Source of the DNA: a virus
DNA: 45,149 nucleotides
Direction: 5' to 3' (one strand)
IMG/VR virus record: IMGVR_UViG_3300028920_000115
Location: 1-45,149 of that record
Under the pieces are notes generated by a model that worked only from the letters and a program-made list of their open reading frames with translations, did not search any database and was not told the origin of the DNA. How positions within the stretch are numbered: the first letter of the stretch is position 1; every line of letters starts with the position of its first letter. This document shows positions 17,070-43,523 of the stretch, piece after piece. A program made the translations under genes and the position numbers.

Positions 17070-18020
17070 ATGCCTAATACAGTTAACAACTACGGTTACG
17101 GAACAGGTATTTCCCCTACAATTTGGAGCGAAATGGTGCAGCAACCTCTTTACAAGCAATTAGTTGCTTTAAAGGTTTGTAACACCAGATTAGCCTCTAA
17201 ATTGACTTACGGAAAAGCTATCCAACTACCTAAATTCAACGATGTATCAGCTAAGGTTTATACCCCTGGTACTGACATGACTGCTACTAACCAAGAATGG
17301 TCTTACGATACTATTAACGTATCTACAAGAAAATACACAATGTCATACTTTGATGACACTGAGTTAATCCAAACTAACGTATCAGTTATGAGTGAACTTG
17401 CTAGAGACGCTGGTTATCAATTAAAGAATGCTATCGATACATTTGCATTCACAAAGATTACTGGAGGAACTAGCATTGGATTATCAGCAGTAGACAGAAG
17501 TGATGTTTACGCTGACAGTTCAACTGGAGGTATTACTGCATCAACTGCCGTTATTATCGACTTGTTTGCTGGAGTTACAGAAGTACTTCGAACAAATAAC
17601 GTTGAGGAAATGGGAGACTGGTGTGCAGTAGTTACTCCTAAGGTAGCTAGATTGATTGAGATTAAAGCTGCTAACACAGGATTTAACGTAGCAGATGCTA
17701 CATTGAAGAATGGTTATGCAGGTAAATGGATGGGTTACGAGATTTATATCTCTAACAACCTACCAACAGGTGCAATTTCAGCCTTAGCTCCTTCAACAAT
17801 TGGAGGACCAACAGCTGCTGCATCAACAGTCACAGGAACAGCTTGTTACTTCGGAAGAAAGGGAATGATTGACCTAATCGTTCAAAAGGCACCATCTATG
17901 GAAATGAGAAAACCATCTAACAAGATTGGTACAAACCTCGTTACATGGACATTATACGGTGCTGGAGTAACATACAAGAACAGAGGCAGAGCAAGAAACG
18001 TTGCTCTAGTAGCTCTCTAG
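17070..18020 (+). CDS. Major capsid protein (HK97-type fold)
   Basis: 316 residues. VCNTRLASKLTYGKAIQLPK, the spine and A-domain-like segments (VVTPKVARLIEIKAANTG, GYEIYISNNLP) and a Gly/Thr-rich loop fit an HK97-fold capsid, as does the order scaffold then capsid. The codon use is more polished than the small genes, suggesting high expression. A strong hairpin lies 30 bases after the stop. Confidence 0.85.
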   Translation: MPNTVNNYGYGTGISPTIWSEMVQQPLYKQLVALKVCNTRLASKLTYGKAIQLPKFNDVSAKVYTPGTDMTATNQEWSYDTINVSTRKYTMSYFDDTELIQTNVSVMSELARDAGYQLKNAIDTFAFTKITGGTSIGLSAVDRSDVYADSSTGGITASTAVIIDLFAGVTEVLRTNNVEEMGDWCAVVTPKVARLIEIKAANTGFNVADATLKNGYAGKWMGYEIYISNNLPTGAISALAPSTIGGPTAAASTVTGTACYFGRKGMIDLIVQKAPSMEMRKPSNKIGTNLVTWTLYGAGVTYKNRGRARNVALVAL

Positions 18021-18050
18021 GATATTGTAAATTAAAATTTGTGTAATTCA

Positions 18051-18080
18051 TTGGACTGGGGACTTCGGTCCCTGGTCCAA
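18051..18080 (+). promoter_or_regulatory. Strong UUCG hairpin after the capsid gene
   Basis: TTGGAC, TG, GGGAC, TTCG, GTCCC, TG, GTCCAA: 11 pairs around a UUCG tetraloop, with one 2x2 internal loop. No T-run follows, so it is not a standard terminator. It more likely stabilises the capsid mRNA end or limits read-through into the glycan cassette. Confidence 0.75.
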
Positions 18081-18090
18081 CTCAAACAAT

Positions 18091-18330
18091 ATGAAAAAAA
18101 TTAAAGAGTTTATCTCCAAAATGTATAGAAGATTTGTTGCCTGGAGATGCAAGAGACAATTACTGAAGCGTAGAGTATTTGATTATGAATTAGAACTAAT
18201 AAACGAAAGATGGCTTATTAAGAGAATTCAGGATGGACAAGCTGGTAGAAGACAGGAATTAACCCAATGTCAGGCAAGAATAAAAGAAATAGACATGTTT
18301 ATAAAGTACCTTAAAAATATAAAGAATTAA
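18091..18330 (+). CDS. Small basic helical protein
   Basis: 79 residues, Lys/Arg-rich and almost entirely helical (MYRRFVAWRCKRQLLKRRVF, then a second coiled-coil half). It lies between capsid and glycan cassette. Could be a capsid decoration or DNA-binding virion protein. No family recognised. Confidence 0.6.
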   Translation: MKKIKEFISKMYRRFVAWRCKRQLLKRRVFDYELELINERWLIKRIQDGQAGRRQELTQCQARIKEIDMFIKYLKNIKN

Positions 18331-18334
18331 TATT

Positions 18335-19594
18335 ATGTCAAGAATAGCATTTTATTTAGACAATATAGATATTTGGAAATCAGGCATCTGGTATCATCGC
18401 CAGGATGTCCCAACAAGAGCTTTAATGAAGAGAGGGCATAATGCCATGCAGTTGGTAATGGTAGATAAAATTCCAGACAAGTATATGGAATTCCCTAATA
18501 CAGTTGTAGTGGGAAGAATTTATCCAGACCACTCTAATCCATTAAAAGCAATCAGGGATTACCAGAAACAAGGTAAAAGAGTAATCTGTGATATAGACGA
18601 TAACTATTGGTCAGTGGACCCATCTAATCCTTCTAAGTTTGTTAGTAATGCGTATAAGGATATGTATGAAACTATGCTTAAAGAAGCAGATGCAGTAACT
18701 ACACCAAGTAAATACTTAGCCAAGAAGATTAAGAAGTTAACTAAGAAACCAGTATTCTTCTGTCCTAATGGAATTGATTATGATGATTACAAGGAACGCC
18801 CAAGAATCAATGGTCAATTAGAGAAGAAGAGAGAGGCTGCCTTAGAAAACCTAACTAATGCTTCTGCAGAATTGGGCGTAAAAGACAAAAAGAAGTTCAG
18901 AGAAGCAGTAGACACCATTCTTCCTTATGATAGAAAACTCAAGGTAGGATACATGGGAGCTGCAAGTCACTGGAAAGACCTTCAGCTAATTGCTGATGTC
19001 GTATTAGAGCTCCAAAAGAATTATAACTTTAGCTTTGGACTCTATGGTATGGTTGGTGAACCATTAGAGGCGGCAATGTATAGTTATGGCAAACTTCTAA
19101 CAAGTGGAAGCAAACCAGAACAAAACGAATACTTTAAGGGTGCTTTAGACTTCTATGACAAATTAAAGAATATGGACATGTATCATGTTCCATTCTATCC
19201 ACCAGAGATGCATCCAGAGATACTTTCTGAGTGTGACTTCGATATTGCCTTAGCTCCATTAGAAGATAGCGAGTTTAACCGAGGCAAAAGTAATATTAAA
19301 TTCTATGAGTATGCCGCAGTGGGAACAGTAACTTTAGCCTCAGATGTTCTTCCTTACAAGGAGGAGTGTAACTACCGAGCCAAGAATACCTTTAAAGACT
19401 GGTATAACAAATTAGAGAAGTTGTTAGTTGATGAAGAATTTAGAAACAAGATTCTTAAGCAACAACAAGACTGGGTAAAGGAACACCGAAGTCTTGAAAA
19501 GATAGGATTAGCTTGGGAGATGGCTTGTCAGAAACCAGGAGGATTAGAGGTTACAAATCAACGTGAGTGGAAAAAACACTTCTGGAAATTATGA
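18335..19594 (+). CDS. Glycosyltransferase, GT-B fold (GT4-like)
   Basis: 419 residues. The N-terminal domain has SGIWYHRQDVPTRALMKRGH and DIDDNYW; the C-terminal nucleotide-sugar domain has LKVGYMGAASHWKDL and ALAPLEDSEFNRGKSNIKFYEYAAVG, the EX7E-type region of GT4 enzymes. It would transfer a sugar from a nucleotide donor. First gene of the cassette, starting four bases after the previous gene. The acceptor is unknown; the position inside the head operon suggests a virion component. Confidence 0.85.
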   Translation: MSRIAFYLDNIDIWKSGIWYHRQDVPTRALMKRGHNAMQLVMVDKIPDKYMEFPNTVVVGRIYPDHSNPLKAIRDYQKQGKRVICDIDDNYWSVDPSNPSKFVSNAYKDMYETMLKEADAVTTPSKYLAKKIKKLTKKPVFFCPNGIDYDDYKERPRINGQLEKKREAALENLTNASAELGVKDKKKFREAVDTILPYDRKLKVGYMGAASHWKDLQLIADVVLELQKNYNFSFGLYGMVGEPLEAAMYSYGKLLTSGSKPEQNEYFKGALDFYDKLKNMDMYHVPFYPPEMHPEILSECDFDIALAPLEDSEFNRGKSNIKFYEYAAVGTVTLASDVLPYKEECNYRAKNTFKDWYNKLEKLLVDEEFRNKILKQQQDWVKEHRSLEKIGLAWEMACQKPGGLEVTNQREWKKHFWKL

Positions 19595-20505
19595 AGATTA
19601 ACGCCTACAACTGGAATAGCTGTATTACCAAGGTCTTAGAACGATTAGAAGAAAAGCACGAATTAGTAGAAGAGCCAGAGGATGCTGATGTAGTTGTTCT
19701 CTGGAATGAGATAGAGAAAGCTGGCTGGCTCAATATAGTTAAAAGAGCCCAAGCAAAAGGAATACCAGTTATCCTTTATCAACAGGGAGTATATGGAATA
19801 GACCGAGTAAGACCACCATTTAATGAGAAGATACATTCAGATGTAGTTCTTGTTTGGGGTCCAGGAGACAAAGATAGATTAGTTAAATACGGAGTGCCAG
19901 AAGAAAAGATTATTGTTACTGGTAGCCCAGTAGTTGACCGACTTATTCCTAAACAGAAACACGATGGTAAAAATGTAGTCTTTGCCTTAGAGCATTGGGA
20001 TTGGGGAGATGTTCCAGAAAATCATATCGTAGCTTCAGAGTTACGCAAGTTAACAGATGTTAACCTTATTACTAAAGGATTACATACAGAGAACTATACC
20101 GAGAACTTTGAGAACCCATTGATTTCAGCTAGGTGGTCAAACGACCATTTAGATATCGTTGCTGACCTTTTGTCAAGAACAGACCTAGTCGTGGCAATAT
20201 CTGAAAGCACATTTGCTTTACTAGCAGAAGTATTAGATATACCAGTAATTATCCCAGATGTCTGGGTTCCAAAAGCAAGAGCAGGAGATTATACATTCCT
20301 AGATTTTGAAAAGAACTGCTCTAATGCGGTAACAAAGTGTAGTTTAGAAGATTTAATTCCAACCATTAAAGAGCATTTAAAACACCCAGGGATTAAAAGA
20401 GAGGAGCGTAAGAAGAATGCTATAATGTGTGGTGGTATAGAAGTCGATAACCCAGTAGATAATTATGTAAGTATTATTGAAAAATATGGAAAAAGATTAC
20501 GCTAA
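19591..20505 (+). CDS. GT-B-like enzyme (glycosyl/glycerophosphotransferase or epimerase type)
   Basis: 304 residues from the ATGA overlap at 19591. Two Rossmann halves are visible: VVVLWNEIEKAGW, VILYQQGVYGIDR, and VWGPGDKDRLVKYGVPEEKIIVTGSPVVDRL, then VVAISESTFALLAEVLDIPVI. The pattern of GSP...R and SES-FALLAEV matches CDP-glycerol glycerophosphotransferases, UDP-GlcNAc 2-epimerases and polysialyltransferase-like enzymes. Which substrate is used cannot be told. Confidence 0.72.
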   Translation: MKINAYNWNSCITKVLERLEEKHELVEEPEDADVVVLWNEIEKAGWLNIVKRAQAKGIPVILYQQGVYGIDRVRPPFNEKIHSDVVLVWGPGDKDRLVKYGVPEEKIIVTGSPVVDRLIPKQKHDGKNVVFALEHWDWGDVPENHIVASELRKLTDVNLITKGLHTENYTENFENPLISARWSNDHLDIVADLLSRTDLVVAISESTFALLAEVLDIPVIIPDVWVPKARAGDYTFLDFEKNCSNAVTKCSLEDLIPTIKEHLKHPGIKREERKKNAIMCGGIEVDNPVDNYVSIIEKYGKRLR

Positions 20506-21082
20506 AAAAGACCTCCTAGATATTAAAAAAGTCTTAGACACCAGAGGAATTAAGTTCTTCTTGGCTTATGGAACTGCTCTAGGAGCTTATAGGGACAAAG
20601 ACTTTATAGATGGAGATGATGATATTGACTTGATTATTACCCAGAAACTCACCTTAAAGGAACGTAAGAAGATAGGATGGGCTCTATTGGATATAGGGTT
20701 TAAACGTCAAGACCGAGTAATGTTTAACGTCTTTGGTAGGTTTGAACAAGTTGGAGAAGGATATGACGGGACAGAGGAAACGGGCATAATAGTCTGTGAA
20801 AGATATGTTCCAGTAACTATATTCTTCTTTAGTGATGAAGAGAAGATGAAGTGTATTCCAAAGTTAGGTTCATTCCCAGTATTAGAAACCAAAGACAAAT
20901 TCTTTAAAGAGGGCGAAAAGATTAAGTTCTTAAAAGAAGATTTCTTAATTCCTAGTCCGATAGAAGAATACCTAGAATACACTTATGATGATTGGAAGAC
21001 TCCAGTTAGCGGAGAACACGCCAAACAATATTCAGAGATATATGGTGAAGAACATTTAAGACAAAAATATGGATTGGACTAG
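20486..21082 (+). CDS. LicD-family nucleotidyltransferase-fold protein
   Basis: 198 residues from the start at 20486. FLAYGTALGAYRDKDF then GDDDIDLII gives the Gly-Thr and DDDID motifs of LicD enzymes, which transfer phosphocholine or similar phospho-groups to surface glycans. The start overlaps the previous gene by 20 bases. Much of the C-terminal LicD region is shorter than the usual 250-270 residues. With a cytidylyltransferase in the same cassette it may attach a CDP-linked group. Confidence 0.82.
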   Translation: MEKDYAKKDLLDIKKVLDTRGIKFFLAYGTALGAYRDKDFIDGDDDIDLIITQKLTLKERKKIGWALLDIGFKRQDRVMFNVFGRFEQVGEGYDGTEETGIIVCERYVPVTIFFFSDEEKMKCIPKLGSFPVLETKDKFFKEGEKIKFLKEDFLIPSPIEEYLEYTYDDWKTPVSGEHAKQYSEIYGEEHLRQKYGLD

Positions 21083-21599
21083 ATTTTATGAAATGCACGC
21101 AAAAGAGTTAGGTGAACCAAGTAATTTCGCTAGGTTTGTCTCTGAGCATGTAAGACCAGGAGATGAATTAGTTGACCTCGGAGCTGGCAATGGAAAAGAC
21201 GTTAAATACTTTAAAGAGAAAAGCATTGATGCTTATGGAATAGATGATGCCTTTGAGAGTGAAGATGTTATCAAGTTAAACGTCAAAGACTATATTAGAA
21301 AAAACCCTTCTCCTAAATACGTATATACTAGATTCTTCTGGCATTCAATAGACAGGGAAACTCAATTAAGTATTCTTGATTGGACAAAAGATACTCTCTT
21401 TATTGAGGCAAGAACCTCATTAGATATTCCAGATAATATCTTTTGCAACAAAAAAAGAAACTTAGTATTTGTTTCAGAGTTAGTAAAAGACTTAAAGAGT
21501 TATGGGTTTGATATAGTTTTTGCCACAGAAGGCAGAGGATTATCTCCTTTCTTACAAGAAGACCCACATTTAATAAGAATAATATGTAAAAAAATATGA
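21069..21599 (+). CDS. SAM-dependent methyltransferase, class I
   Basis: 176 residues with VDLGAGNGKDVKYF, the SAM-binding glycine loop, then DAYGIDDAF (acidic residue after strand 2). Methylates an unknown acceptor; the cassette suggests a sugar or lipid-linked intermediate. Overlaps LicD by 14 bases. The small size suggests a minimal fold without a substrate cap. Confidence 0.72.
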   Translation: MDWTRFYEMHAKELGEPSNFARFVSEHVRPGDELVDLGAGNGKDVKYFKEKSIDAYGIDDAFESEDVIKLNVKDYIRKNPSPKYVYTRFFWHSIDRETQLSILDWTKDTLFIEARTSLDIPDNIFCNKKRNLVFVSELVKDLKSYGFDIVFATEGRGLSPFLQEDPHLIRIICKKI

Positions 21600-21745
21600 C
21601 ATTTGTAATGGGGGTAGCTGATTTATTGGCTGTAGTAATAATAGGTTCATTATTATTAGGTAGTGTGCCACCATGGCCACTAACCGCAATAGTATGTTTC
21701 ATATTAGTGTTTAAGGGTATACCAAGTTTAACATTAAGAGTATGA
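21596..21745 (+). CDS. Small two-span membrane protein in the glycan cassette
   Basis: 49 residues. Two hydrophobic stretches (LLAVVIIGSLLLG and LTAIVCFILVFKG) are joined by a VPPWP turn. It overlaps both neighbours by ATGA. It could anchor the cassette's enzymes at the membrane. No family recognised. Confidence 0.6.
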   Translation: MTFVMGVADLLAVVIIGSLLLGSVPPWPLTAIVCFILVFKGIPSLTLRV

Positions 21746-23232
21746 GGGCTGTCTTAATTAGCCCAACATTAATAATGGAAGCACCGATGCCACTAGCTAT
21801 GCTGGCTCCAATATTCAAGGAAGCAGGATATGAGGTAGAGGCAGTTGTTAACACATTTAAAAAGCCATTAGAGTTATCAGACTTTCTAACTAAGTGTGCT
21901 GGGGCAGACATAGTTGGGATAAATATGCTTACATTTGAGGTTAATAAGACCTATAAGCTGATGAGAGCCCTTAAGAACATAGGAATACCAACAGTAATCG
22001 TAGGAGGACCACACCCAACAGACTGCCCAGAAGAGTGTATTGAAGCAGGAGCAGATGTGGTCGTAGTTGGCGAAGGAGAGGCAGTATTGAAGAAGTGGCT
22101 AAAAGATACCTCTAAGCGTGGAATACTCGACAGAGAGCCTCCTGTGGACTTACAGAGCCTACATTTACCAGACCTCAGTATCTTTGACCCAGAACAGTTT
22201 AGAGATGAGACAGGATTGATTAGAGGTTTCCACAGGATATATACAAGCAGAGGTTGTCCAGGGATGTGCACCTTCTGTGATTGGCAAGTATTCAAACAGA
22301 ACTTCAGATTTTATCCAGTAGATGACATTATCTCAGAGATTAAGAGAAGAAGAGACGAGTATGGGATTACGTCCTTCTCTATAGCAGATGACTGTTTCAC
22401 CGTAGGCAAAAGTAGAGTATATGAGTTCTGTGAAAAGATTAAACCTTTAAATGTTAAATGGAGAGCCAATTCAAGAGCCAACCTAGCAGACGAGGACATG
22501 TTCAGAGCAATGAAAGACGCAGGTTGTCACTCAATAGCCTTTGGACTAGAGAACGGAGACCCTGAAACCCTAGAAAAGATAAGAAAGATGGTCACCTTAG
22601 AGCAGAACATAGAAGCCCCTTGGATGGCTCATAGAGCAGGATTAGAAGTATATGGCTGTATGATGACAGGATTTCCTTGGGAAAATGTGAGCCACGTTAA
22701 AAATAATATAGAGTTTTTAAAAAAGACATGGGATGCTGTATCATTGTATCAAGTATCAGGAGGTTTAATGCCATTTCCAGGCACTCAGATTTACAGAGAC
22801 TATCACGAAGAACACGGTTTTACTAAGTATTGGTTGAGACCAGATTATCAGAACTTTGGAATACAGGTATATCAAAATGCTGTTAATCCATTAGCAATGA
22901 GTACCTTATACCAGCGATACTTGTGGGACGATACATATATCCAGAACGATTATTTCTTTAAATATACCAAGGAATACAAGAAAGCAGTTAGAGAGTTTGC
23001 CAAGGCTATAGGGCGGCACAACCTACCATTTATGCTTAAGAGTAAGTGGAAAGCCAAACTAATGTATTGGGCTTGTCTAGCCTCAATGAAGCTATACGAT
23101 ATTAACCCACACATAGAAATGGCAATAGGGGGCTGGTTCTATGAAAAGTTCGGACATGGTAGAAGAACTAAAGTAGAATCATTAAGAGAAAAAAGAAGAG
23201 GAATTGTAAAAACTTATGATAATCCAAACTAG
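21742..23232 (+). CDS. B12-binding radical SAM enzyme
   Basis: 496 residues. The N-terminal cobalamin-binding domain has GADIVGINMLTF, VIVGGPHPT and VVVVGEGEAV. The radical SAM core has RGCPGMCTFCDW, with the CxxxCxxC cluster cysteines at 172, 176 and 179. Family members methylate unreactive carbons or phosphinates or rearrange rings, using SAM and cobalamin. In this cassette it would alter a sugar, lipid or side group. A phage-borne member of this class is unusual. Start chosen by ATGA overlap. Confidence 0.9.
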   Translation: MRAVLISPTLIMEAPMPLAMLAPIFKEAGYEVEAVVNTFKKPLELSDFLTKCAGADIVGINMLTFEVNKTYKLMRALKNIGIPTVIVGGPHPTDCPEECIEAGADVVVVGEGEAVLKKWLKDTSKRGILDREPPVDLQSLHLPDLSIFDPEQFRDETGLIRGFHRIYTSRGCPGMCTFCDWQVFKQNFRFYPVDDIISEIKRRRDEYGITSFSIADDCFTVGKSRVYEFCEKIKPLNVKWRANSRANLADEDMFRAMKDAGCHSIAFGLENGDPETLEKIRKMVTLEQNIEAPWMAHRAGLEVYGCMMTGFPWENVSHVKNNIEFLKKTWDAVSLYQVSGGLMPFPGTQIYRDYHEEHGFTKYWLRPDYQNFGIQVYQNAVNPLAMSTLYQRYLWDDTYIQNDYFFKYTKEYKKAVREFAKAIGRHNLPFMLKSKWKAKLMYWACLASMKLYDINPHIEMAIGGWFYEKFGHGRRTKVESLREKRRGIVKTYDNPN

Positions 23233-23235
23233 AAT

Positions 23236-23706
23236 ATGAATAAATTACCAAAAATAAAAGACAAGCATCTTAAAATAGAGATAGGTTGTGGTAACACAAA
23301 GCAACCAGGCTTTATAGGAATAGATGTACGAGACTGTGGACAAGAGATAATCTGGGATGTAAGAGGAGGTATTCCACTACCAGATGAATCAGTTAGTGAA
23401 ATCTATTCAAGCCACGTCTTAGAACACTTTGATAACGAGGAATTAAAAGCATTGTTCAAAGAGTTTGTAAGGGTGTTAGAGCCAGGAGGAAAGATAGGAG
23501 CTAGACTTCCACATCAATTAGACCCATCAGCTTATTACTTTGACCACAAGACATTTTGGAACGAGGGTAGAGTTGATACATTACCGGGAGTTCCAGGGCT
23601 TGGCTGTTTAAAGGTAACTAAAAATGAAGCAACTAATAAACTAAATAATGTAGGGTTCATGGAGTTATTCTTTGAACTTAAAAAATATGAAAAACTTGAT
23701 AAATGA
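23236..23706 (+). CDS. SAM-dependent methyltransferase, class I (type 11-like)
   Basis: 156 residues: IEIGCGNTKQPGFIGIDVRD is the SAM-binding loop, then SEIYSSHVLEHFDNEEL and RVLEPGGKIGARLP, typical of the Methyltransf_11 group. A short member without lid domain. The second methyltransferase of the cassette. Confidence 0.82.
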   Translation: MNKLPKIKDKHLKIEIGCGNTKQPGFIGIDVRDCGQEIIWDVRGGIPLPDESVSEIYSSHVLEHFDNEELKALFKEFVRVLEPGGKIGARLPHQLDPSAYYFDHKTFWNEGRVDTLPGVPGLGCLKVTKNEATNKLNNVGFMELFFELKKYEKLDK

Positions 23707-24952
23707 TTTGTATAAGTTAAAACCACAACTATTAGGAGTTGGTTATGACAACTGTATAAAATATATACAGCATTTAATAAAACTAGATGTATTAGAGTTC
23801 CCAAGTGGAACTGAATTTGAAAGCTGGACTGTTCCAGATGAGTGGGTAGTGAAAGAGGCCTGGGTTAAATACAAGGGCAAAAAGATAATTGATTTTAATA
23901 AGGAACCATTATCATTAATGGTGTATTCCCAACCATTTAAAGGAAAGATTGACAGAGATGAATTAAAGAAACACCTTTACTTCTCAGAAGAACAGAAGGA
24001 TGCTTATCCTTATGAGTATTCCTTTTATGAGAAGAAATGGGGAGTATGTCTACCATATAATAAGATATTTGACAAAGACGGAAAAGACAAACTAAAGGAA
24101 GGAGAGTATGAAGTCAATATAGATGTTGAATTCAAACCAGGAACAATGAAAGTAGGCGTTCACACTATTCCAGGTAAAACAGACAGAGAGATATTGTTGT
24201 TAGCCCATTTAGACCACCCACACCAGGCAAATGATAACTTAAGTGGAGTAGCCTGTTTATTTGAATATATCAAGAAGAACCTTCCAAAAAAGATAGACCA
24301 TACAGTTAAAATCGTATTCTGCCCAGAAACGATAGGTTCTATTGCTTACACTCAAACACAGGATTTAAGCAAAGTAGACTTTGTTATTTCAGTAGATATT
24401 TGCGGCAACGATAATGGAGTGTTATACCAGAGAACATTTGAGGAAGAACATCGATTAAATAGGATTGTAGATTTGGCTGTCAAGGAGTCAATAACTGGGG
24501 ATAAGTCAGAAGAATACAGATTTGGTGAGTGGAGGCACATGATAGGCTCAGACGAATATCCATTTACAGACCCACAGATTGGAATTCCAGGAATACTTCT
24601 TACCAGATACCCATATCGTGAATATCACAGTTCAAATGATAAACCTGAAATTATAGACGAGAAAAAAATAAAGCACGTTCAAAAGATTATTCAAAATATA
24701 ATCAAGATTTACGAGAAAGACTATATTCCTGTAAGAGTAGGAAAACTACCAATTCATAGAAGTAAATATGGACTCCAAGCCCCATTTCATCAGATAAACC
24801 GTTCACTTGATTATTTGCTATTCAATGTAGACGGAGAAAAGTACTTATCAGACATAGTTTACTCGTTAAACTTAAATTATGAATTCTGTTATGAGTATTT
24901 TGAAAGGTTGAAAAAAGACGGTCTAATAATAGATAAAAAACTAATGCCATGA
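23687..24952 (+). CDS. M28-like aminopeptidase-fold protein (DUF4910/DUF2172 type)
   Basis: 421 residues. LLAHLDHPHQANDNLSG holds the zinc-binding His-Asp pattern of this group; EYHSSNDKPEII and further His/Asp residues follow. An insert of 60 residues before the active site fits the DUF2172 domain. Proteins of this group recur in surface-polysaccharide clusters, where a role on glycan intermediates is suspected. The start at 23687 overlaps the methyltransferase by 20 bases. Confidence 0.78.
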   Translation: MKNLINDLYKLKPQLLGVGYDNCIKYIQHLIKLDVLEFPSGTEFESWTVPDEWVVKEAWVKYKGKKIIDFNKEPLSLMVYSQPFKGKIDRDELKKHLYFSEEQKDAYPYEYSFYEKKWGVCLPYNKIFDKDGKDKLKEGEYEVNIDVEFKPGTMKVGVHTIPGKTDREILLLAHLDHPHQANDNLSGVACLFEYIKKNLPKKIDHTVKIVFCPETIGSIAYTQTQDLSKVDFVISVDICGNDNGVLYQRTFEEEHRLNRIVDLAVKESITGDKSEEYRFGEWRHMIGSDEYPFTDPQIGIPGILLTRYPYREYHSSNDKPEIIDEKKIKHVQKIIQNIIKIYEKDYIPVRVGKLPIHRSKYGLQAPFHQINRSLDYLLFNVDGEKYLSDIVYSLNLNYEFCYEYFERLKKDGLIIDKKLMP

Positions 24953-25509
24953 AAATTACAGGATTAATGCTTGTCAAGGAACAAAGCTCAAGATTAAAGA
25001 ACAAGAATTGGAGGTCATATAAAGGCAAACCAATGTTTCAGTGGAATCTTGAGAAGATGTTATTGGTCTTTGATGAAGTATATGTTAGTTCTGATAATGA
25101 AGGTATCTTGCGTCAATCACAAGAGTTAGGGGCAAGAGGAATTAAGAGACCACCAGAGTTATTAGAGGCAACAAATATAGACTGTTATAGACACGCCCAA
25201 GGGTTCATGCAAGCAGACGCATTTGTAGCAGTGCAGGCAAATAGCCCAGAAACAGGAATAAAGTTAATTAAATACGCTAAAGACCTTTTAGAATTAGGAC
25301 ACGAAGAAGTCAAGACCTGTCATGTAGATGGGAAAGACTATGGTTCAATCTGGGGGATGACAGATGAAAGACTAATGACCTACCAAGACCCATACCATTC
25401 AAATCCAACTAAATGGATAAAAGACTTCAGCATAGATATACATACCATAGATGACTTATGGAAAAGCTATAATTCTTATAGAGAATATAAAATGAAATAT
25501 AAAAAGTAA
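24949..25509 (+). CDS. Acylneuraminate cytidylyltransferase-like protein (NeuA-like)
   Basis: 186 residues. SSRLKNKNWRSYKGKPMFQW and EVYVSSDNEGILRQSQELGA are the nucleotide-binding features of CMP-sialate and KDO cytidylyltransferases; ANSPETG follows. It is shorter than the usual ~220 and the first loop lacks the canonical Arg-x-Gly-Ser (here KEQSSRL). It would activate a nonulosonic acid as the CMP sugar. The next gene is NeuB-like, the usual pairing. Start by ATGA overlap. Confidence 0.8.
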   Translation: MKITGLMLVKEQSSRLKNKNWRSYKGKPMFQWNLEKMLLVFDEVYVSSDNEGILRQSQELGARGIKRPPELLEATNIDCYRHAQGFMQADAFVAVQANSPETGIKLIKYAKDLLELGHEEVKTCHVDGKDYGSIWGMTDERLMTYQDPYHSNPTKWIKDFSIDIHTIDDLWKSYNSYREYKMKYKK

Positions 25510-25510
25510 T

Positions 25511-26194
25511 ATGTGTGATGTAATATTTGAAGTAGGCCATAATGGAAATGGCAACATGCGTCTTAACAAACTAATGATAGAGGAGGTTAAGAAGTGTGGC
25601 GGACAAGTTGTGAAGTTCCAATTATATGATACTGATAAGATTAAGAAACCTTGGCAGTCAAGATATATGGAATTAAAGATGGCAGAACTGACTAAATATG
25701 ACTTACTGGAATTGAAAGAACACGCTGATAAATGTGGACTAGAATTCATGGCTAGTGCATTTGACCCAGAAAGGGTAGGGTGGCTAGAGGAGATAGGCGT
25801 TAAACGCCATAAATTGGCTTCTAGGAGCATTTATGACACTGAGACGATAAAAGCTATGGAAAAGACAGGAAAGCCCATTATAGCGTCTCTGGGGGCGTAT
25901 AAAGAGAAATCACTCCCAAAGATAAAAAACGCTCAATTTCTCTATTGTGTCGCAGAATATCCAGCATATATTAAAGATTTACCAAGTTTCAAAGAATATG
26001 ATGGGTTCTCAGACCACACAGTAGGTATGTATTGGGCAAGAGAGGCAGTTAAAAGAGGAGCTAAAATTATAGAAAAGCACTTTACATTAAGTAGGGAGTT
26101 ACCAGGGCATAATCAAAAAGGCTCAGCCGAGCCTTGGGAAATGAAAGATTTTATGACGTATGTTAAACAACACGAACGGGGAGCAATGTACTAA
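25511..26194 (+). CDS. NeuB-like sialic acid synthase, short form
   Basis: 227 residues of TIM-barrel NeuB: EVGHNGNGN, GGQVVKFQ, GVKRHKLASR, GFSDHTVG and IIEKHFTL. NeuB condenses PEP with a hexosamine such as ManNAc to make a nonulosonic acid. Normal enzymes are about 340 residues because of a C-terminal SAF (antifreeze-like) domain that contributes an Arg across the dimer; it is missing here. It may still act alone, or be an altered synthase. One base separates it from the NeuA-like gene. Confidence 0.86.
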   Translation: MCDVIFEVGHNGNGNMRLNKLMIEEVKKCGGQVVKFQLYDTDKIKKPWQSRYMELKMAELTKYDLLELKEHADKCGLEFMASAFDPERVGWLEEIGVKRHKLASRSIYDTETIKAMEKTGKPIIASLGAYKEKSLPKIKNAQFLYCVAEYPAYIKDLPSFKEYDGFSDHTVGMYWAREAVKRGAKIIEKHFTLSRELPGHNQKGSAEPWEMKDFMTYVKQHERGAMY

Positions 26195-26197
26195 AAA

Positions 26198-26268
26198 AGC
26201 CCTCAGGACTTAGTAGTTTACTGAAGGCTCTATTACCCCCATCGTTTAACTCCTTTTGAGAGCTAAAC
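26198..26268 (+). promoter_or_regulatory. Structured leader before the HAD-cytidylyltransferase pair
   Basis: AGCC-C-TCAG (26198-26206) pairs with CTGA-A-GGCT (26221-26229) with one mismatch, and GTTTA-A-CTC (26244-26252) pairs with GAG-AGC-TAAAC (26258-26268). The next gene begins at 26341 after a further 70 noncoding bases. No clear promoter box is seen. The element may be a 5' leader of an independently regulated two-gene module. Confidence 0.45.
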
Positions 26269-26340
26269 AACTGCGTCTTCCCGTTTCCAGGTGCAACGTC
26301 TTACAATGAACTAATTAATAATTAACACAAAAAAAGAACT

Positions 26341-26634
26341 ATGTCAAGAGTATATATTGTGGATATCGATAATACGATAACAAAAACAGAGGGAGAGGAT
26401 TATGAGAACGCTCAACCAATCCCAGAACGTATAAGTATATTAAACGAATATCATAAAAAGGGGCATAAGATAATATATGCCACAGCCAGAGGACAAGAAA
26501 GTGGAAAGAACTACGAAACATTAACAAGAAAACAATTAAAGGAATGGGGGGCTAACTACCACTCATTAATTGAAAAACCATATGCAGATGTCATAGTCGA
26601 TGACAAAGCACATAATAGTGAGAAGTTCTTTTAA
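26341..26634 (+). CDS. HAD-superfamily phosphatase
   Basis: 97 residues: DIDNTI (motif I DxDxT-like) near the start, then IIYATARGQESG and DVIVDDKAHN (motif IV). A small HAD of the capsule-biosynthesis type that would remove phosphate from a sugar phosphate. It is followed by the cytidylyltransferase gene, as in some D-glycero-sugar or glycerol-based pathways. Confidence 0.82.
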   Translation: MSRVYIVDIDNTITKTEGEDYENAQPIPERISILNEYHKKGHKIIYATARGQESGKNYETLTRKQLKEWGANYHSLIEKPYADVIVDDKAHNSEKFF

Positions 26635-26645
26635 GGAGATGTGTT

Positions 26646-27104
26646 ATGAAAAAGGTATTCTTTCAAGGTACATTTGATATTCTGAACTGGGGACATGTTA
26701 TGGCATTTCGTGATGCCAAAGCCCAGGGAGACTATCTAATTGTTGGATTAAATAGCGACAAACTTGTAAGTGATTACAAGAATAGAGAACCAATCCTTCC
26801 CTTTTGGCAAAGAAAAGCTATTCTTGAGTCAATTAGATGGATAGACGAAGTTGTCGAAATCCACACCTTTAGCCCTTTAAAAGAGTTAAGGGAATTGAAA
26901 ATCGATGTCTATATCATTGGCTCTGAGTGGAAAGCCAGCAAGGTCAAGGAGATGAACTACATGAAGTCTATCGGTGGTTCAGTATTCTTTACTCCTGAAT
27001 ATGACGGCGTTATTCATTCCAGTGAAATACGGAAACGATGTGTTTCCGAAGAAACCAAAAAACATCTTCAAAAAATGGAGAAACAAGGAAAAGTGTGGCG
27101 GTAA
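26646..27104 (+). CDS. Cytidylyltransferase-like nucleotidyltransferase (TagD/RfaE type)
   Basis: 152 residues. GTFDILNWGH (8-17) is the HxGH motif, but its first His is Asn14. GLNSDKLVSDYK and IIGSEWK complete a TagD-like fold; the ISSTxIR-type region is replaced by GVIHSSEIRKR. TagD makes CDP-glycerol; relatives make other CDP or ADP sugars. The Asn change may alter activity. AAGGAGATG precedes the start, an SD rarely seen in this genome. Confidence 0.82.
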   Translation: MKKVFFQGTFDILNWGHVMAFRDAKAQGDYLIVGLNSDKLVSDYKNREPILPFWQRKAILESIRWIDEVVEIHTFSPLKELRELKIDVYIIGSEWKASKVKEMNYMKSIGGSVFFTPEYDGVIHSSEIRKRCVSEETKKHLQKMEKQGKVWR

Positions 27105-27151: not shown

Positions 27152-27862
27152 ATGCAATTTAATTACAAAGCAGACGAAAACTCAATATACGATGATATAG
27201 ACTTCTTATGTGGGTCTACATCAGCAACTTATCCAATCCTAGATAAACGTAGGAACATTTTAGCTGCCTACAATGATGTTAGTAGAATGATATGGGAAGT
27301 AGCCTATGGCTGGCAGTATGATGATAGTAATAGAACAGATTTACCGATAGCTGTAACTGATTTAGTAGACGGACAGGCAGATTATGGATTACCTACTAAT
27401 GCTCAAAGAATTGAAAGAGTAGAGGTAATGAATAGTCAAGGAGATTATCAGAAATTAAGAAACGTAGACACTAGAGACATTAGTATTGGTATAGATGAAT
27501 TTGAGGGAACTAATGGTATGCCCCAGTATTATGATATGATTGGGCGTTCCATTATGTTATACCCTACTCCTGCTAGTGGAGATGTTACTCTTACCAGTGG
27601 GCTACAAATAGTAGTGTCAAGAGACGTGTCTGCTTTTGCAAGTGCTAGTACGGCCGAGCCTGGATTTGCAAGACCCTTCCACAGAATACTATCTTTAGGA
27701 GCAGCAATAGATTTCGTAAGAGACCCAAGTGAAAGAAAGAGATTTGTAGAAATGAGAGACCGACTAGAAAGAGGCTTAGTTAGATTTTACAGCAAAAGAG
27801 AAGAAGAAGGTAAGACACGAATAGAACCAACTAATAAAAAGAATTGGTCACAATATGTTTAA
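27152..27862 (+). CDS. Head-tail connector/adaptor protein
   Basis: 236 residues. DKRRNILAAYNDVSRMIWEVAYGW, YGLPTNAQRIERVEV, RSIMLYPTPASGDVTL and an alpha-helical end match the gp4-like adaptor of P22-type short-tailed phages, which sits under the portal. First structural gene after the glycan cassette. The match is by pattern, not alignment. Confidence 0.68.
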   Translation: MQFNYKADENSIYDDIDFLCGSTSATYPILDKRRNILAAYNDVSRMIWEVAYGWQYDDSNRTDLPIAVTDLVDGQADYGLPTNAQRIERVEVMNSQGDYQKLRNVDTRDISIGIDEFEGTNGMPQYYDMIGRSIMLYPTPASGDVTLTSGLQIVVSRDVSAFASASTAEPGFARPFHRILSLGAAIDFVRDPSERKRFVEMRDRLERGLVRFYSKREEEGKTRIEPTNKKNWSQYV

Positions 27863-36100: not shown

Positions 36101-36976
36101 ATGTCAATACCCCTAACCAAATTACGTAAAATACAAAAGCAAATAGGAATCATTATCAATAAAATTGAGAAGGAGGCTGTTGATAATGGAGAGGATATTT
36201 CTACAGAGGAGTTCCGTGAAGGAATAAAGTTATTAACAGATAAGTTACTAACACAATACGGAACCACCCCAGAAGAATACAAATCTACCTTAGAAGAAAT
36301 ATCTATTAAAAAGAAAGAAACTGTGGAAAAAGAAAAGGCAGAAATGAAAGAAGATAGAAACCAAACCAAAGAGATATTTGAAAAGATTACTCAAATTAAG
36401 GGTGATAAAGGGGATAAGGGAGACGTTGGTCCGCAAGGAAAAACAGGACCACAAGGACCACAAGGGGAACGTGGACCCAAAGGGGAGAAGGGAGATAAGG
36501 GAGACAGAGGTCCAGAGGGTAAAAGAGGAAAAGATGGTAAGAACGGCAAGAACGGAAGAGACGGCAAAACCTACCTACTTCCAAACATTAAAAAGACAGT
36601 TAGAAAAGAAATAGATTCATTTAGAAAAGAAGTTGACACAATGATTAAGGCGGCAATAAAAGATAGTGCCGACCTTATTATGCAAAACCCAGAGCTAATT
36701 AAGATGCCTGCCTTTAGAGCCTTGGGAATGGGGCTACAAGCACAAATAGATGATTCCATCTTATCAGTAGCAACCATAGACTTAGACAGCCAATGTGATG
36801 GAAGTAATCAAACATTCTCTTTGGGCAGAAAGGTAAAAGGTGTTATACTTGTTAATAATAATGGTGGTTTAGTTAGCGATGCTGGATGGACCCTAAACGA
36901 TAATAAAAATCAAATAACTTTAAACGACTATGCTCCTGAAAATGGAGAGGAGCTAGAAGTCGTGGCACTAGTATGA
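36101..36976 (+). CDS. Collagen-like tail fibre
   Basis: 291 residues. Helical N-terminus (1-100), then an uninterrupted Gly-X-Y stretch (101-156, GDKGDKGDVGPQGKTGPQGP and on). A coiled segment follows, then a beta C-terminus (SDAGWTLNDNKNQITLNDYA). The collagen triple helix would form the trimeric fibre shaft. Common in phage fibres; the C-terminus may bind the host. Confidence 0.85.
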   Translation: MSIPLTKLRKIQKQIGIIINKIEKEAVDNGEDISTEEFREGIKLLTDKLLTQYGTTPEEYKSTLEEISIKKKETVEKEKAEMKEDRNQTKEIFEKITQIKGDKGDKGDVGPQGKTGPQGPQGERGPKGEKGDKGDRGPEGKRGKDGKNGKNGRDGKTYLLPNIKKTVRKEIDSFRKEVDTMIKAAIKDSADLIMQNPELIKMPAFRALGMGLQAQIDDSILSVATIDLDSQCDGSNQTFSLGRKVKGVILVNNNGGLVSDAGWTLNDNKNQITLNDYAPENGEELEVVALV

Positions 36977-39683: not shown

Positions 39684-40466
39684 ATGATTAGTGTAATAAT
39701 ACCAATATTTAAAGATGCTCTTTCAAAACCAACAATAGAATCATTATTAGAGAACGCAAAAGGACCAATAGAGGTCATTGCAGTGCTAGACGGAGGCTGG
39801 TTAGCCCCAGAACACATGGTAGAAGACCCAAGAGTTAATTATCTTCACCTCGGCAAGAAGCGAGGTATGAGAGACGCTATCAACGCAGGGGTAAGTATAG
39901 CCAGAGGAGACTACCTTATGAGAACAGATAGTCATTGTATGTTTGCCCCAGGTTACGACAAAGAGATAACAGAAAATATGGAAGACAACTGGATAGTTAC
40001 TCCAAGAAGGTATTTCTTAGACCCAGTTAAATGGGAAGTAATGGATTTACCACCAGTTGACTATGAGAGACTAGGAATACAAACAATAGGTAATGGCAAG
40101 AAGTTCTGTGGAATGCCATGGGACAGACCAGATAGAAAAGATGTCCCAATAGACGAAAGTATGGGAATGCAAGGCTCCTGCTGGTTTATGAAGAAGAGCT
40201 GGTGGGACAAAGTAATTAAAAACCTAAACAGCAAGAAGTATGGACCACTCTTACAAGACAGCCACGAAATGATATTTAAAACATGGAAAGCTGGCGGTAA
40301 GATGATGGTTAATAAGAACACTTGGTTTGCCCATAAGCACGTCAGCTTCCCTAGGACACACCAACACTCAACTAAAGAGGCAGAGACAGAAACCAGAGCC
40401 TTTTATGAAGAGTGGAAAGATTATTATTATAATGAAATAAAACCAAAATGGAAAAAGTTAGTGTAA
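39684..40466 (+). CDS. Glycosyltransferase family 2 (GT-A), paralogue 1
   Basis: 260 residues. ISVIIPIF, IEVIAVLDGGW, KKRGMRDAINAGVSIARG and RTDSHCMF (metal-binding DxH variant of DxD), then QGSCWFMKKSWWDK and MMVNKNTWFAHKH. The shared motif set QGSCWFM and TW(F/Y)AHK occurs in two further genes downstream. Transfers a sugar to an unknown acceptor. One base after the previous gene. Confidence 0.85.
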   Translation: MISVIIPIFKDALSKPTIESLLENAKGPIEVIAVLDGGWLAPEHMVEDPRVNYLHLGKKRGMRDAINAGVSIARGDYLMRTDSHCMFAPGYDKEITENMEDNWIVTPRRYFLDPVKWEVMDLPPVDYERLGIQTIGNGKKFCGMPWDRPDRKDVPIDESMGMQGSCWFMKKSWWDKVIKNLNSKKYGPLLQDSHEMIFKTWKAGGKMMVNKNTWFAHKHVSFPRTHQHSTKEAETETRAFYEEWKDYYYNEIKPKWKKLV

Positions 40467-41905
40467 TTATTCCAAGTAGAAACGAACTCTATTTGGATAA
40501 AACTGTAGATAGTTTAATAAAGAACGCCAAAGAAGAAGTAGAGATAATTGTAGTCTTAGATGGCTACGAAAAGAAACCTGACCTACCTAAAGGAGTTAAG
40601 ACCATTTGGAGAAAGAAATCCAAGGGTATGAGAAACTCCGTTAACGAGGGGGTTAAAAAGGCTACTGGTAAATACATAATGAAATGTGATGCTCATTGTG
40701 CTTTCGACGAAGGATATGATGTCAAGCTCAAAAAGAGCTGTAAGGACAACTGGGTAGTAGTTCCTAGAAGATACGCTATTGATAAGAATACCTGGGGGCA
40801 ACACAAGGAAGGCATTTACTATGACTTTCAATACATCTCACACCCCAAAGACCCTAACTACACTTTTAAGGGAGTAGATTGGCCAGGATATTCTTCCAGA
40901 GTTCCTAAAGACCAACAGATAGTTGACCTAATGACATCTCAAGGAAGTTGCTGGTTTATGCACAAAAGTTTCTTTGAAAAGATAGGCGGACTAGATGAGG
41001 AGAACTATGGCACTATGGGAGCAGAAGCCCAAGAGGTTTGCTTAAAGACCTACCAAGCAGGAGGAAGATATGTTCTTAACAGAGGTACGTGGTATGCTCA
41101 TAAGAAGAAACGAGTAGGTAAGCGTGGTAATGACCGAGGCTACAAGAAACCAGGCAATGAATGGAAGAAGTCCAGAAAATACGCTATAGATTATTGGGTT
41201 AGAGGAGAGGGAAGACCTACCTTAGATAAAGTTCTTAAAATGTTCAAACCAGTTCCAGGATGGAACACCAAATGGGAAACAGTAGAAACAGAGAGATTTA
41301 TACTAGATAGGTTCAAATTAAACCAAGGGACAGAAAAATGGCCGAGAGTAATTAAAGATTTAAACAGAGAAGGGCTAATAGAGTTATGGCGTGACCTAGG
41401 ATACAAGATAGGAGCTGAAGTAGGAGTCCAGTATGGAGAGTTCAGTAAAGCTATTCTTAAAGGAATACCAGGTTCAAAAATGTATCTAGTTGACCCTTAT
41501 TATGATTACGCAGGCAGTAAAAACCACAATGGAAGGCACCCTGAGATTAAAGACGTGGCTCACAAAACTCTTAGAAAGTATAATGGAATATGGATACAAG
41601 AGAAAAGTGAAACAGCCTTTAACAAGATAATAGACAAGTCACTAGATTTTGTTTACATAGACGGCAATCACGATTATGATTTTGTAATGTTAGATATACT
41701 ATTGTGGCAAAGAAAGGTTAGAAGAGGAGGGATGGTTTGTGGGCACGATTACCAGACAGATAAAAACCCAAAGACCAGACACGTGAAAGTGGCAGTTGAT
41801 AACTACACATCGCTTCACCAAATATCACCAGTATATTTAACAGACATTAAAAACCAAAAAACACCAGCAGACCGACATGCTAGTTGGTTCTGGGTAAAAT
41901 CATGA
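40448..41905 (+). CDS. Fused GT2 glycosyltransferase and class I methyltransferase, paralogue 2
   Basis: 485 residues. The first 250 carry the GT2 motifs (VSVIIPSRNELYLDKTVDSL; KCDAHCAFDEGYD; QGSCWFMHKS; TWYAHKK). The C-terminal 190 form a methyltransferase: GYKIGAEVGVQYGEFSKAI, LVDPYYDY and FVYIDGNHDYDFVMLDI, of the Methyltransf_24 type. One protein that may both add and methylate a sugar. Overlaps the preceding gene by 19 bases. Confidence 0.87.
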   Translation: MEKVSVIIPSRNELYLDKTVDSLIKNAKEEVEIIVVLDGYEKKPDLPKGVKTIWRKKSKGMRNSVNEGVKKATGKYIMKCDAHCAFDEGYDVKLKKSCKDNWVVVPRRYAIDKNTWGQHKEGIYYDFQYISHPKDPNYTFKGVDWPGYSSRVPKDQQIVDLMTSQGSCWFMHKSFFEKIGGLDEENYGTMGAEAQEVCLKTYQAGGRYVLNRGTWYAHKKKRVGKRGNDRGYKKPGNEWKKSRKYAIDYWVRGEGRPTLDKVLKMFKPVPGWNTKWETVETERFILDRFKLNQGTEKWPRVIKDLNREGLIELWRDLGYKIGAEVGVQYGEFSKAILKGIPGSKMYLVDPYYDYAGSKNHNGRHPEIKDVAHKTLRKYNGIWIQEKSETAFNKIIDKSLDFVYIDGNHDYDFVMLDILLWQRKVRRGGMVCGHDYQTDKNPKTRHVKVAVDNYTSLHQISPVYLTDIKNQKTPADRHASWFWVKS

Positions 41906-42588
41906 AACAAATATTGTATTACACAGCACACGAGATGAAGAATCAGAAAGTCTTCAAACTTGTACAAGAACAATTAAAAAATGCGGAACTACCAATAATA
42001 TCAGTTTCACTTAATAAGCCATTAGACTTTGGAGAGAACTATGTTGTTAAGGGCGAGAAAGGATACCTCTCAATGTTCAAACAGATATTACACGGACTTA
42101 AAAAGAGTAAAGCAGACTACATCTTTATGGCAGAACACGATGTCCTATACCACCCATCACACTTTAAGTTCACTCCACCCAGAGATGACACTTACTACTA
42201 CAACAGCAACGCCTATAAGTTCAAACTAAAAACAGGCAAGATAGTAAAGTATGACCATAGGTGGCTATCCCAACTATGTGCCAATAGAAAACTCCTAATA
42301 CAACACTATGAGAAGAAAATTAAAATAATTGAGGAGGGCAAGCCAAGAAAGTTCTATGGTTATGAGCCAGGAACAGGACACAGTAGAAATGTGGATAACT
42401 ATGGGTTTGACTACTTTGAGAGTGAGTTGCCCAATATAGACATAAGACATGGAAAAAACCTATCAGGAACTGGGCGGATGAAGGTAGAAGACTTCCGAGA
42501 CAAAAAAACTTGTAAGAACTTTAAAGAATACAAACTAGACCAGATACCTGGCTGGGATGTAGAATTTTTATGCGACCTTGTGACTTAA
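41902..42588 (+). CDS. Glycosyltransferase-like protein
   Basis: 228 residues from the ATGA overlap at 41902. YIFMAEHDVLYHPSHF looks like a GT-A metal site (EHD), with DTYYYNSNAYKFKLKTGK after. The N-terminal half resembles a GT2 core, but the motifs of its neighbours are absent, so the call is moderate. GPxRKFYGYEPG-like region (KPRKFYGYEPGTGHS) may be the acceptor part. Confidence 0.68.
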   Translation: MKQILYYTAHEMKNQKVFKLVQEQLKNAELPIISVSLNKPLDFGENYVVKGEKGYLSMFKQILHGLKKSKADYIFMAEHDVLYHPSHFKFTPPRDDTYYYNSNAYKFKLKTGKIVKYDHRWLSQLCANRKLLIQHYEKKIKIIEEGKPRKFYGYEPGTGHSRNVDNYGFDYFESELPNIDIRHGKNLSGTGRMKVEDFRDKKTCKNFKEYKLDQIPGWDVEFLCDLVT

Positions 42589-43523
42589 GCATTTTAATAC
42601 CTGCTAGGAACGAAGAATTCTTGGTTAGGACAATCCAGGACATACTGGATAACATTGAGGCAGACACAGAAGTAATAGCTGTCCTAGATGGATACTGGCC
42701 TAACCCAGGCATACCAATACACGACAGAGTAACTGTTCTCCATTTAGGGGAGGCAGTGGGACAGAGGGCGGCTACCAATTTTGCAGCCAGACTCGCTCGA
42801 GGCAAATATTTGATGAAAGTAGACGCCCACTGCTCTTTTGACAAGGGCTTTGACAGAAAGATGATTGATGAGATGCACGATGACTGGACCATGGTTCCTA
42901 CTATGAAGAACTTACACGCCTTTGATTGGGTCTGTGAGTGTGGCGAAAGAAAGTATCAGGACAAGGGTGGGACATGTAAGTGTGGAAAACAAATGACTAA
43001 GGACATTAAATGGCTTGCTAAAAAGAGACCAAACAGCAATTCTTATTGTTTTGATAGCACCCCTCATTTTCAATACTTCGGAGAATACAACAAGAGACCT
43101 GAGGGCAAAGGTGACCTAACAGAGACAATGAGTTTACAAGGAAGTTGCTTTATGTGTACCAAGGACAAGTACTGGGAATTAAACCTATCAGATGAGACAT
43201 TAGGAAACTGGGGCAACCAAGGAATAGAGGTAGCTTGTAAGACCTGGTTATCAGGAGGCAAATGTATGGTAAACCATAAGACATGGTATTCCCACATGTT
43301 TAGAACCAAACAAGTAAATGACTTCGGATTCCCTTGGCCTATTAGTGGAAAGGAAACACAAAAGACAAGGAACAAAGTAAAAGCTCTATTCTGGAACAAC
43401 AACAATTACAAATATCCACTTAGTTGGTTGGTAGAAAGATTTTGGCCAGTCAAGGGGTGGGACGAAAGGTCGCTAGAAGAAATTAAAACTAATCAAAACA
43501 ATGATAACAAAAAAACAACTTAG
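42570..43523 (+). CDS. Glycosyltransferase family 2 with zinc-ribbon insert, paralogue 3
   Basis: 317 residues. SILIPARNEEFLVRTIQDIL, EVIAVLDGYWP, KVDAHCSFDKGFD, LQGSCFMCTKDKYW and MVNHKTWYSH match the other two paralogues. An insert, CECGERKYQDKGGTCKCGK, adds a four-Cys zinc ribbon missing from them. Overlaps the previous gene by 19 bases. Confidence 0.85.
   Translation: MRPCDLSILIPARNEEFLVRTIQDILDNIEADTEVIAVLDGYWPNPGIPIHDRVTVLHLGEAVGQRAATNFAARLARGKYLMKVDAHCSFDKGFDRKMIDEMHDDWTMVPTMKNLHAFDWVCECGERKYQDKGGTCKCGKQMTKDIKWLAKKRPNSNSYCFDSTPHFQYFGEYNKRPEGKGDLTETMSLQGSCFMCTKDKYWELNLSDETLGNWGNQGIEVACKTWLSGGKCMVNHKTWYSHMFRTKQVNDFGFPWPISGKETQKTRNKVKALFWNNNNYKYPLSWLVERFWPVKGWDERSLEEIKTNQNNDNKKTT

Follow-up and report, generated by a model that had tools for sequence, protein, structure and literature searches.

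RESULTS

A twelve-gene locus between the capsid and adaptor genes

The IMG/VR virus record IMGVR_UViG_3300028920_000115, analyzed here over its whole length of 45,149 bases (hereafter, the window), carries a cassette of 12 open reading frames (ORFs) at positions 18335 to 27104, all on the plus strand and situated among the head genes of a tailed phage. The first 50 bases of the record recur at about 45,021 (positions 45021 to 45070), so the genome is probably circularly complete and the record close to a full circular map. The head genes are ordered TerL (12360), portal (14424), scaffold candidate (16460), capsid (17070), a gene for a protein of 79 amino acids (aa), the cassette, and the adaptor, with the 196-aa ORF at 16460 taken as the scaffold from its position alone. 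From capsid to adaptor, every gene is on the plus strand, and neighbors mostly overlap or abut (gaps of −29 to +146 nucleotides [nt]). An earlier note on this DNA had placed 12 genes between capsid and connector at the same coordinates, and its ORFs and the content of its list hold; the boundaries shift in places, with likely starts at ATG 19591, 20486, and 23687, the membrane peptide at 21596 to 21745, and an extra gene at 18091 to 18330. The features of the locus are as follows.

17070-18020, plus strand: major capsid protein (MCP), Phage_capsid_4 (PF25209, E = 4e-10); fixed left border of the locus
18021-18090, plus strand: GC-rich hairpin directly 3' of the capsid gene (13-bp stem, UUCG loop)
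18091-18330, plus strand: small basic protein, 79 aa, between capsid and GT1, conserved in the alignment of relatives
18335-19594, plus strand: GT1, a GT4-like GT-B glycosyltransferase and family core gene (Pfam E = 1e-4, below the cut-off)
19591-20505, plus strand: GT2, a compact GT-B enzyme (ORF opens at GTG 19567; likely start ATG 19591)
20486-21082, plus strand: LicD-family phosphotransferase (PF04991, E = 1e-7; ORF opens at TTG 20477, likely start ATG 20486)
21069-21599, plus strand: MT1, S-adenosylmethionine (SAM) methyltransferase-like (MetW, 2e-4, just over the cut-off; phrog_29440, 1e-13)
21596-21745, plus strand: hydrophobic membrane peptide, 49 aa, recognized from its sequence
21742-23232, plus strand: B12-binding radical SAM enzyme (PF02310, 5e-17; PF04055, 4e-21)
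23236-23706, plus strand: MT2, SAM methyltransferase (PF08241, 4e-8)
23687-24952, plus strand: DUF4910/DUF2172 metallopeptidase-like protein, earlier called aminopeptidase-like (PF16254, 2e-46; likely start ATG 23687)
24949-25509, plus strand: NeuA-like CMP-sugar synthetase, short form (PF02348 [CTP_transf_3], 1e-9; NeuA structures, E = 1e-4)
25511-26194, plus strand: NeuB-like synthase, condensing phosphoenolpyruvate (PEP), without the SAF domain (PF03102, 2e-40; PDB matches to NeuB, SpsE, and PseI)
26195-26340, plus strand: noncoding gap with a terminator-like hairpin 3' of NeuB (fold prediction)
26341-26634, plus strand: small HAD-type phosphatase-like protein, 97 aa, a weak assignment (phrog_1238, 8e-27)
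26646-27104, plus strand: TagD/ECT/Fom1-type cytidylyltransferase, here CTlike (PF01467 [CTP_transf_like], 2e-17; PDB 3elb, 1coz, and 5x3d)
27152-27862, plus strand: SU10-type adaptor, or head-tail connector (PF24175, 1e-9); right border of the locus

The locus is lineage-wide and probably ancestral

Because a scan of IMG/VR started from NeuB could return only what was searched for, a second scan was started from the capsid protein. The NeuB scan recovered 13 contigs with the layout MCP-GT1-GT2-DUF4910-NeuA-NeuB-adaptor, some of them truncated by contig ends. The capsid scan yielded 113 loci, including re-hits, that collapse into 64 clusters at 95% capsid identity, of which 54 have at least 1.5 kb of sequence downstream and 20 also show the adaptor. 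The same cassette, for which the earlier note had suggested a search, does occur in these relatives: GT1 lies behind the capsid gene in 52 of the 54 clusters, GT2 in 46, and the 79-aa gene in 43, and the capsid-adaptor interval of the 20 clusters that also show the adaptor holds GT1 in 18 cases, GT2 in 17, DUF4910 and NeuB in 16 each, and NeuA in 15. The locus is lineage-wide and probably ancestral, its arrangement recurring in dozens of related contigs, far beyond chance. The patterns used in the capsid scan were derived from seeds that carry the cassette, and the scan would therefore overlook very distant relatives that lack it; MW202577 is one such phage, with the MCP, only small ORFs, and then the adaptor. 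Two contigs (L194 and L197) carry several of the genes between TerL and portal instead and still have GT1 near the capsid gene, and in L192 the locus is split. In distinct phages, capsid genes of other kinds are likewise followed by GT1-like genes (L228, with an SU10_MCP; L229; and MW202801). A near-DNA search of GenBank phages gave no match, and searches of 50,697 phage records with portal, capsid, and NeuB returned nothing closer than distant matches, which leaves those records without a close cultured relative.

GT1 co-diverges with the capsid protein

Mantel tests of pairwise divergence give r = 0.86 for MCP and GT1 (n = 52), 0.70 for MCP and portal, and 0.14 for MCP and NeuB (p = 0.11); GT1 co-diverges with the capsid protein, more closely than the portal does, whereas NeuB does not. 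The NeuB tree reveals at least two sources for the gene in this slot, namely, a clade of 17 rows that lack SAF, among them the window, and a clade of 9 full-length rows placed near cellular enzymes; the wider group around the former also holds other viral proteins and three cellular ones. That NeuB has been replaced by another NeuB argues that its reaction is needed. Ratios of nonsynonymous to synonymous substitution (dN/dS) for cassette genes range from 0.04 to 0.28, each gene being represented by only one to seven unsaturated pairs.

The periphery is variable and resembles that of O-antigen loci, with an RmlB-like dehydratase in 10 clusters and GT-A glycosyltransferases in 13, as well as LicD, methyltransferases, RmlA, DegT aminotransferase, ATP-grasp, and deacetylase genes. 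PEP mutase lies beside LicD in about eight clusters (L002, L145/L220, L146, L156, L162, L177, L200, and others), and the L220 protein matches PF13714 (E = 2e-47) and PDB 5unc (E = 6e-42) and has the EDK..PKRNS motif. Most of these clusters add two split halves of a thiamine pyrophosphate enzyme (phosphonopyruvate decarboxylase-like), an iron-type alcohol dehydrogenase, and CTlike; L200 additionally has a class III aminotransferase. Following established pathways, relatives with these genes could make hydroxyethyl- or aminoethyl-phosphonate and its CMP ester, which LicD could then use for attachment. The window cassette has no PEP mutase, and its CTlike and LicD more likely handle a phospho-alcohol.

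Predicted chemistry of the locus

NeuA of the window has the N-terminal S-x-R-L-x-x-K-N motif, in the form SSRLKNKN, and deviates at none of the family alignment columns with at least 85% conservation. A profile built from the NeuB family alignment matches the TIM barrel of PDB 6ncs (4e-49), and 10 residues of the window NeuB (E7, K35, Q37, K101, S104, S126, S167, H169, E188, and H190) are invariant in that alignment. They align to E25, K53, Q55, K129, S132, S154, S213, H215, E234, and H236 of NmNeuB, which we take to bind PEP and the metal in this meningococcal enzyme. The SAF-less form (224 to 245 aa) occurs in the window and 16 relatives, and Pfam recognizes NeuB with SAF in L139, L145, and L177 and a NeuA-NeuB fusion in L192. 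From these core motifs, kept in both proteins, together with the relatives that have NeuB plus SAF or a NeuA-NeuB fusion, it is a sound inference that the locus specifies a sugar of the CMP-nonulosonic acid (CMP-NulO) type. The earlier note had likewise read the pair as making CMP-nonulosonic acids; the class stands, and NeuB and NeuA alone are insufficient to show sialic acid specifically.

The fusion protein of L192 (3959-5218) is located upstream of the portal gene. Other viral contigs that have no match to the window head genes (L015, L016, and L018) carry SAF-less NeuB with B12 radical SAM genes nearby. The SAF-less form is also present in contigs of Omnitrophota and Bdellovibrionales (L023, L024, and L025); at positions 3766 to 9707 of L023, the neighbors of NeuB include an asparagine-synthase-like gene, CTP_transf_3, and DUF4910, a cellular counterpart of the trio seen in the phages.

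Structural modeling agrees with the GT-B fold that had been assigned to both glycosyltransferases, and the family of GT2 is left tied. The AlphaFold2 model of GT1 (pLDDT of 79) matches BshA-, MshA-, and PimA-type glycosyltransferases at Z scores of 26 to 27. That of GT2 (pLDDT of 94.7) matches TarL (Z score of 18.6; root mean square deviation of 3.5 over 272 residues), TagF (18.0), and UDP-GlcNAc 2-epimerase (17.9), so that by predicted fold the teichoic acid polymerases and the epimerase are tied, and sequence hints are divided among the GT4, Kdo transferase, and epimerase families. The epimerase motifs EAGLR and PEE presumably hold its catalytic Glu residues; in a weak alignment (E = 0.009), EAG is replaced in GT2 by QHG or QQG. 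We considered GT2 as a UDP-GlcNAc 2-epimerase on account of the fold tie and disfavor it, as the sequence motifs differ. The QHG-type motif is present in 41 of 43 homologues, the window and L003 having QQG, so GT2 chemistry may differ in the window.

The LicD match (32 bits, over the cut-off) spans only the N-terminal 34 of 227 model positions. CTlike, its probable donor maker, resembles TagD, ethanolamine-phosphate cytidylyltransferase, and the 5x3d chain deposited as PEP mutase, which we take to be Fom1. The B12 radical SAM enzyme possibly performs C-methylation or other sugar tailoring, and the HAD protein matches the NCBIfam EcbF/BcbF capsule phosphatase model at 6e-11, below the cut-off of that model. 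The DUF4910 protein is homologous to CA_C2195 (PDB 3k9t, E = 3e-46), to which the authors of that structure ascribe a role in modified polysaccharide synthesis on the basis of gene neighborhoods with spsE, spsF, glycosyltransferases, and methyltransferases (PMC4000134).

Expression signals and host

The hairpin at 18021 to 18090 is predicted to be very stable (minimum free energy of −21.9 kcal/mol for the 70 nt) and is a possible attenuator that would reduce cassette expression. An Rfam search gave no match, including in the gap at 26195 to 26340, and a Bacteroidota-type promoter pattern occurs at chance level.

Omnitrophota were chosen as candidate hosts because of contigs L023 and L025. A DNA search there returned short, nearly all imperfect matches, most of them to the tail-fiber gene, with no convincing CRISPR-like hit, and a portal search of three genomes and a capsid search of two were empty. 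In eight contigs (the window, G001, G002, G003, G004, G005, G008, and G010), ATG starts are preceded by Shine-Dalgarno-like sites less often than the background rate (0.00 to 0.10 versus 0.10 to 0.15), and leaders are A-rich; this scarcity suggests, as a lead only, a host that does not use such sites and has an unusual translation-start habit.

DISCUSSION

The probable role of the locus is to furnish the virus particle with a complex sugar coat. None of 883 cassette ORFs has three or more predicted membrane segments by hydropathy, a screen that would miss a one-segment initiating transferase, and no flippase, exporter, polymerase, ligase, or oligosaccharyltransferase is therefore evident; without such machinery, the glycan would be finished in the cytoplasm, where the virion proteins are. 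Phage_integrase has no match in seven records in which controls were detected. Taken together, the late-operon position, the lack of an integrase match, and the coupling of GT1 to the capsid indicate a virion acceptor, and the evidence favors cytoplasmic glycosylation of a virion protein over remodeling of the host surface. As a whole, the best explanation, in which we place moderate confidence, is a late-operon locus that glycosylates a virion protein during assembly, the capsid protein being the likeliest target. Its observed basis is the gene content, synteny, conserved motifs, GT1-capsid co-divergence, and NeuB replacement. The addition of the glycan during assembly, as the earlier note had suggested, is accordingly the favored reading of these data.

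In the mechanism that we propose, NeuB would join PEP to a sugar of the hexosamine type supplied by the host, and NeuA would activate the product as a CMP-sugar. CTlike and LicD would attach a phosphate-type group, which in some relatives would be a phosphonate, and the methyltransferases, B12 radical SAM enzyme, and DUF4910 protein would tailor the sugar. GT1 and GT2, both predicted to be soluble GT-B enzymes, would build a short cytoplasmic glycan on a virion protein during assembly, the MCP being the possible acceptor that we consider most likely. The chemistry, the acceptor, and the benefit to the phage are what we infer from these genes. As phages exchange the donor-making genes, the coat would vary in the manner of a serotype. 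More tentatively, the lineage may share an O-antigen-like coat serotype locus, in which GT1 is fixed at the capsid gene and donor modules (NulO, phosphonate, methyl, and deoxysugar) are exchangeable, the virion displaying a variable, host-like, charged glycan that diversifies as modules are swapped.

Several observations weigh against virion glycosylation by a CMP-NulO pathway. At 227 aa, the window NeuB lacks the C-terminal SAF (antifreeze-like) domain, in which Arg314 of NmNeuB presumably sits and has a functional role, and the equivalent of NmNeuB Asp247 is Asn201. No 2-epimerase or other source of ManNAc was recognized with confidence, so the sugar acceptor for NeuB must probably come from the host. 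The window GT2 is without an otherwise conserved His, adjacency alone could link the divergence of GT1 and MCP, and these analyses identified no acceptor residue or site. The promoter and terminator scan was uninformative (sigma-70 promoters at chance level, terminators near chance).

The enzymes might instead modify surface-glycan precursors in the host cytoplasm, leaving host flippases and ligases to display them and so mask receptors of the infected cell or free progeny from debris. NeuA, NeuB, and LicD are typical of lipopolysaccharide and capsule loci, the closest cellular neighborhoods are surface-polysaccharide loci (NeuB, CTP_transf_3, and DUF4910 in the Omnitrophota contig L023), and DUF4910 loci sometimes contain carbohydrate exporters (PMC4000134). 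The cassettes, however, show no exporter, polymerase, ligase, or initiating transferase; they occupy a late position between head genes, with GT1 coupled to the capsid gene, and the missing integrase match makes lysogenic conversion unlikely. Host-surface alteration, which the earlier note had offered as its alternative, is thus possible and less favored, and we regard it as doubtful. If the virion is the target, the acceptor could also be a tail fiber rather than the head: collagen repeats, which are glycosylated in BclA and in mimivirus, are present in the protein encoded at 36101 to 36976, a possible acceptor ahead of a 790-aa tail-fiber protein, and a second glycan module lies directly behind the fiber genes, as follows.

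39684-43523, plus strand: three GT-A glycosyltransferases, of which one has a fused methyltransferase, plus an uncharacterized ORF (PF00535, 1e-13 to 6e-18; PF13578)

The cassette nevertheless sits at the capsid gene and not at the fiber genes, the second module was not found in 10 related records (queried with 40448 to 41905), and fiber matches to relatives are weak, which makes a fiber acceptor unlikely. That the locus is a neutral hotspot of passenger genes acquired from hosts, as the variable periphery, the replaced NeuB, and HNH-like ORFs inserted in relatives might suggest, is very improbable given a core order kept throughout the lineage, low dN/dS, intact motifs, and a gene content overwhelmingly of sugar chemistry. 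Hypermodification of phage DNA is scarcely credible: virus-encoded glycosyltransferases that modify DNA are known (Pyle 2024, as cited in a passage of PMC12619734) and distant fold matches include DNA alpha-glucosyltransferases, but no hydroxymethylase or thymidylate-synthase-like gene was seen, no more than two ORFs in the early region reach 200 aa, and NeuA, NeuB, LicD, and PEP mutase suit surface glycans. With base-modifying partner genes not seen, we rejected it.

Virion glycosylation has precedents. Passages of PMC11256854 and PMC12619734, citing Freeman 2023, link phage-encoded glycosyltransferases of mycobacteriophages Che8 and Rita to glycans that their capsid proteins bear covalently, so the "new kind of phage coat modification" raised in the earlier note is not supported as worded. 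The likeness lies in phage-encoded glycosyltransferases that are linked, or in the window locus probably linked, to capsid glycans. According to the same passages, the mycobacteriophage genes are found toward one end of the genome (a description given for the related phage Maravista), and the glycans are described as a shield. The window has instead a 12-gene locus between capsid and adaptor with donor genes of its own (NeuA/NeuB, LicD, and B12 radical SAM), to which relatives add phosphonate genes. To our knowledge, the glycosylation genes of chlorovirus PBCV-1 are not arranged as one capsid-linked cassette. This virus, too, encodes most of the machinery and glycosylates its capsid protein in the cytoplasm, but it is a eukaryotic algal virus with a jelly-roll capsid, and the relevant passages of PMC7019647 mention no NulO or phosphonate genes.

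Bacterial DUF4910 and spsE/spsF loci, such as CA_C2186-2199, share NeuB-, NeuA/SpsF-, and DUF4910-type genes, glycosyltransferases, methyltransferases, and a variable periphery with the phage locus; they are cellular, several with exporters, whereas the phage locus stands among head genes without membrane export (PMC4000134). The Manatee Spring podovirus MW202801 has, in order, an MCP, radical SAM-like, glycosyltransferase, PhyH, methyltransferase, NodB, and GT1-like genes and then a phage stabilization protein; its head genes differ and NeuA/NeuB are not annotated, and the case appears to be independent or very distant. Borg glycoconjugate clusters include PEP mutase and have been proposed to decorate the host surface or capsid-like proteins, but Borgs are huge archaeal elements with no tailed-phage head operon (PMC12660748). 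We found no NulO or phosphonate cassette in phage head operons in the open-access literature that we searched, which is weak evidence of absence. Phage capsid glycosylation is already known; the novelty here lies in a capsid-linked locus of O-antigen-like type that combines NulO with phosphonate chemistry.

If this reading is true, tailed phages would carry a near-complete, swappable glycan chemistry for their own particle, and sialic-acid-type and phosphonate groups, so far tied to cell surfaces, would occur on virions. Genomes would then be read differently with respect to virion charge, stability, adhesion to mucus or biofilm, antibody recognition, and receptor mimicry, and a single locus, always at the capsid gene, would provide a genetic handle for finding glycosylated phages in metagenomes.

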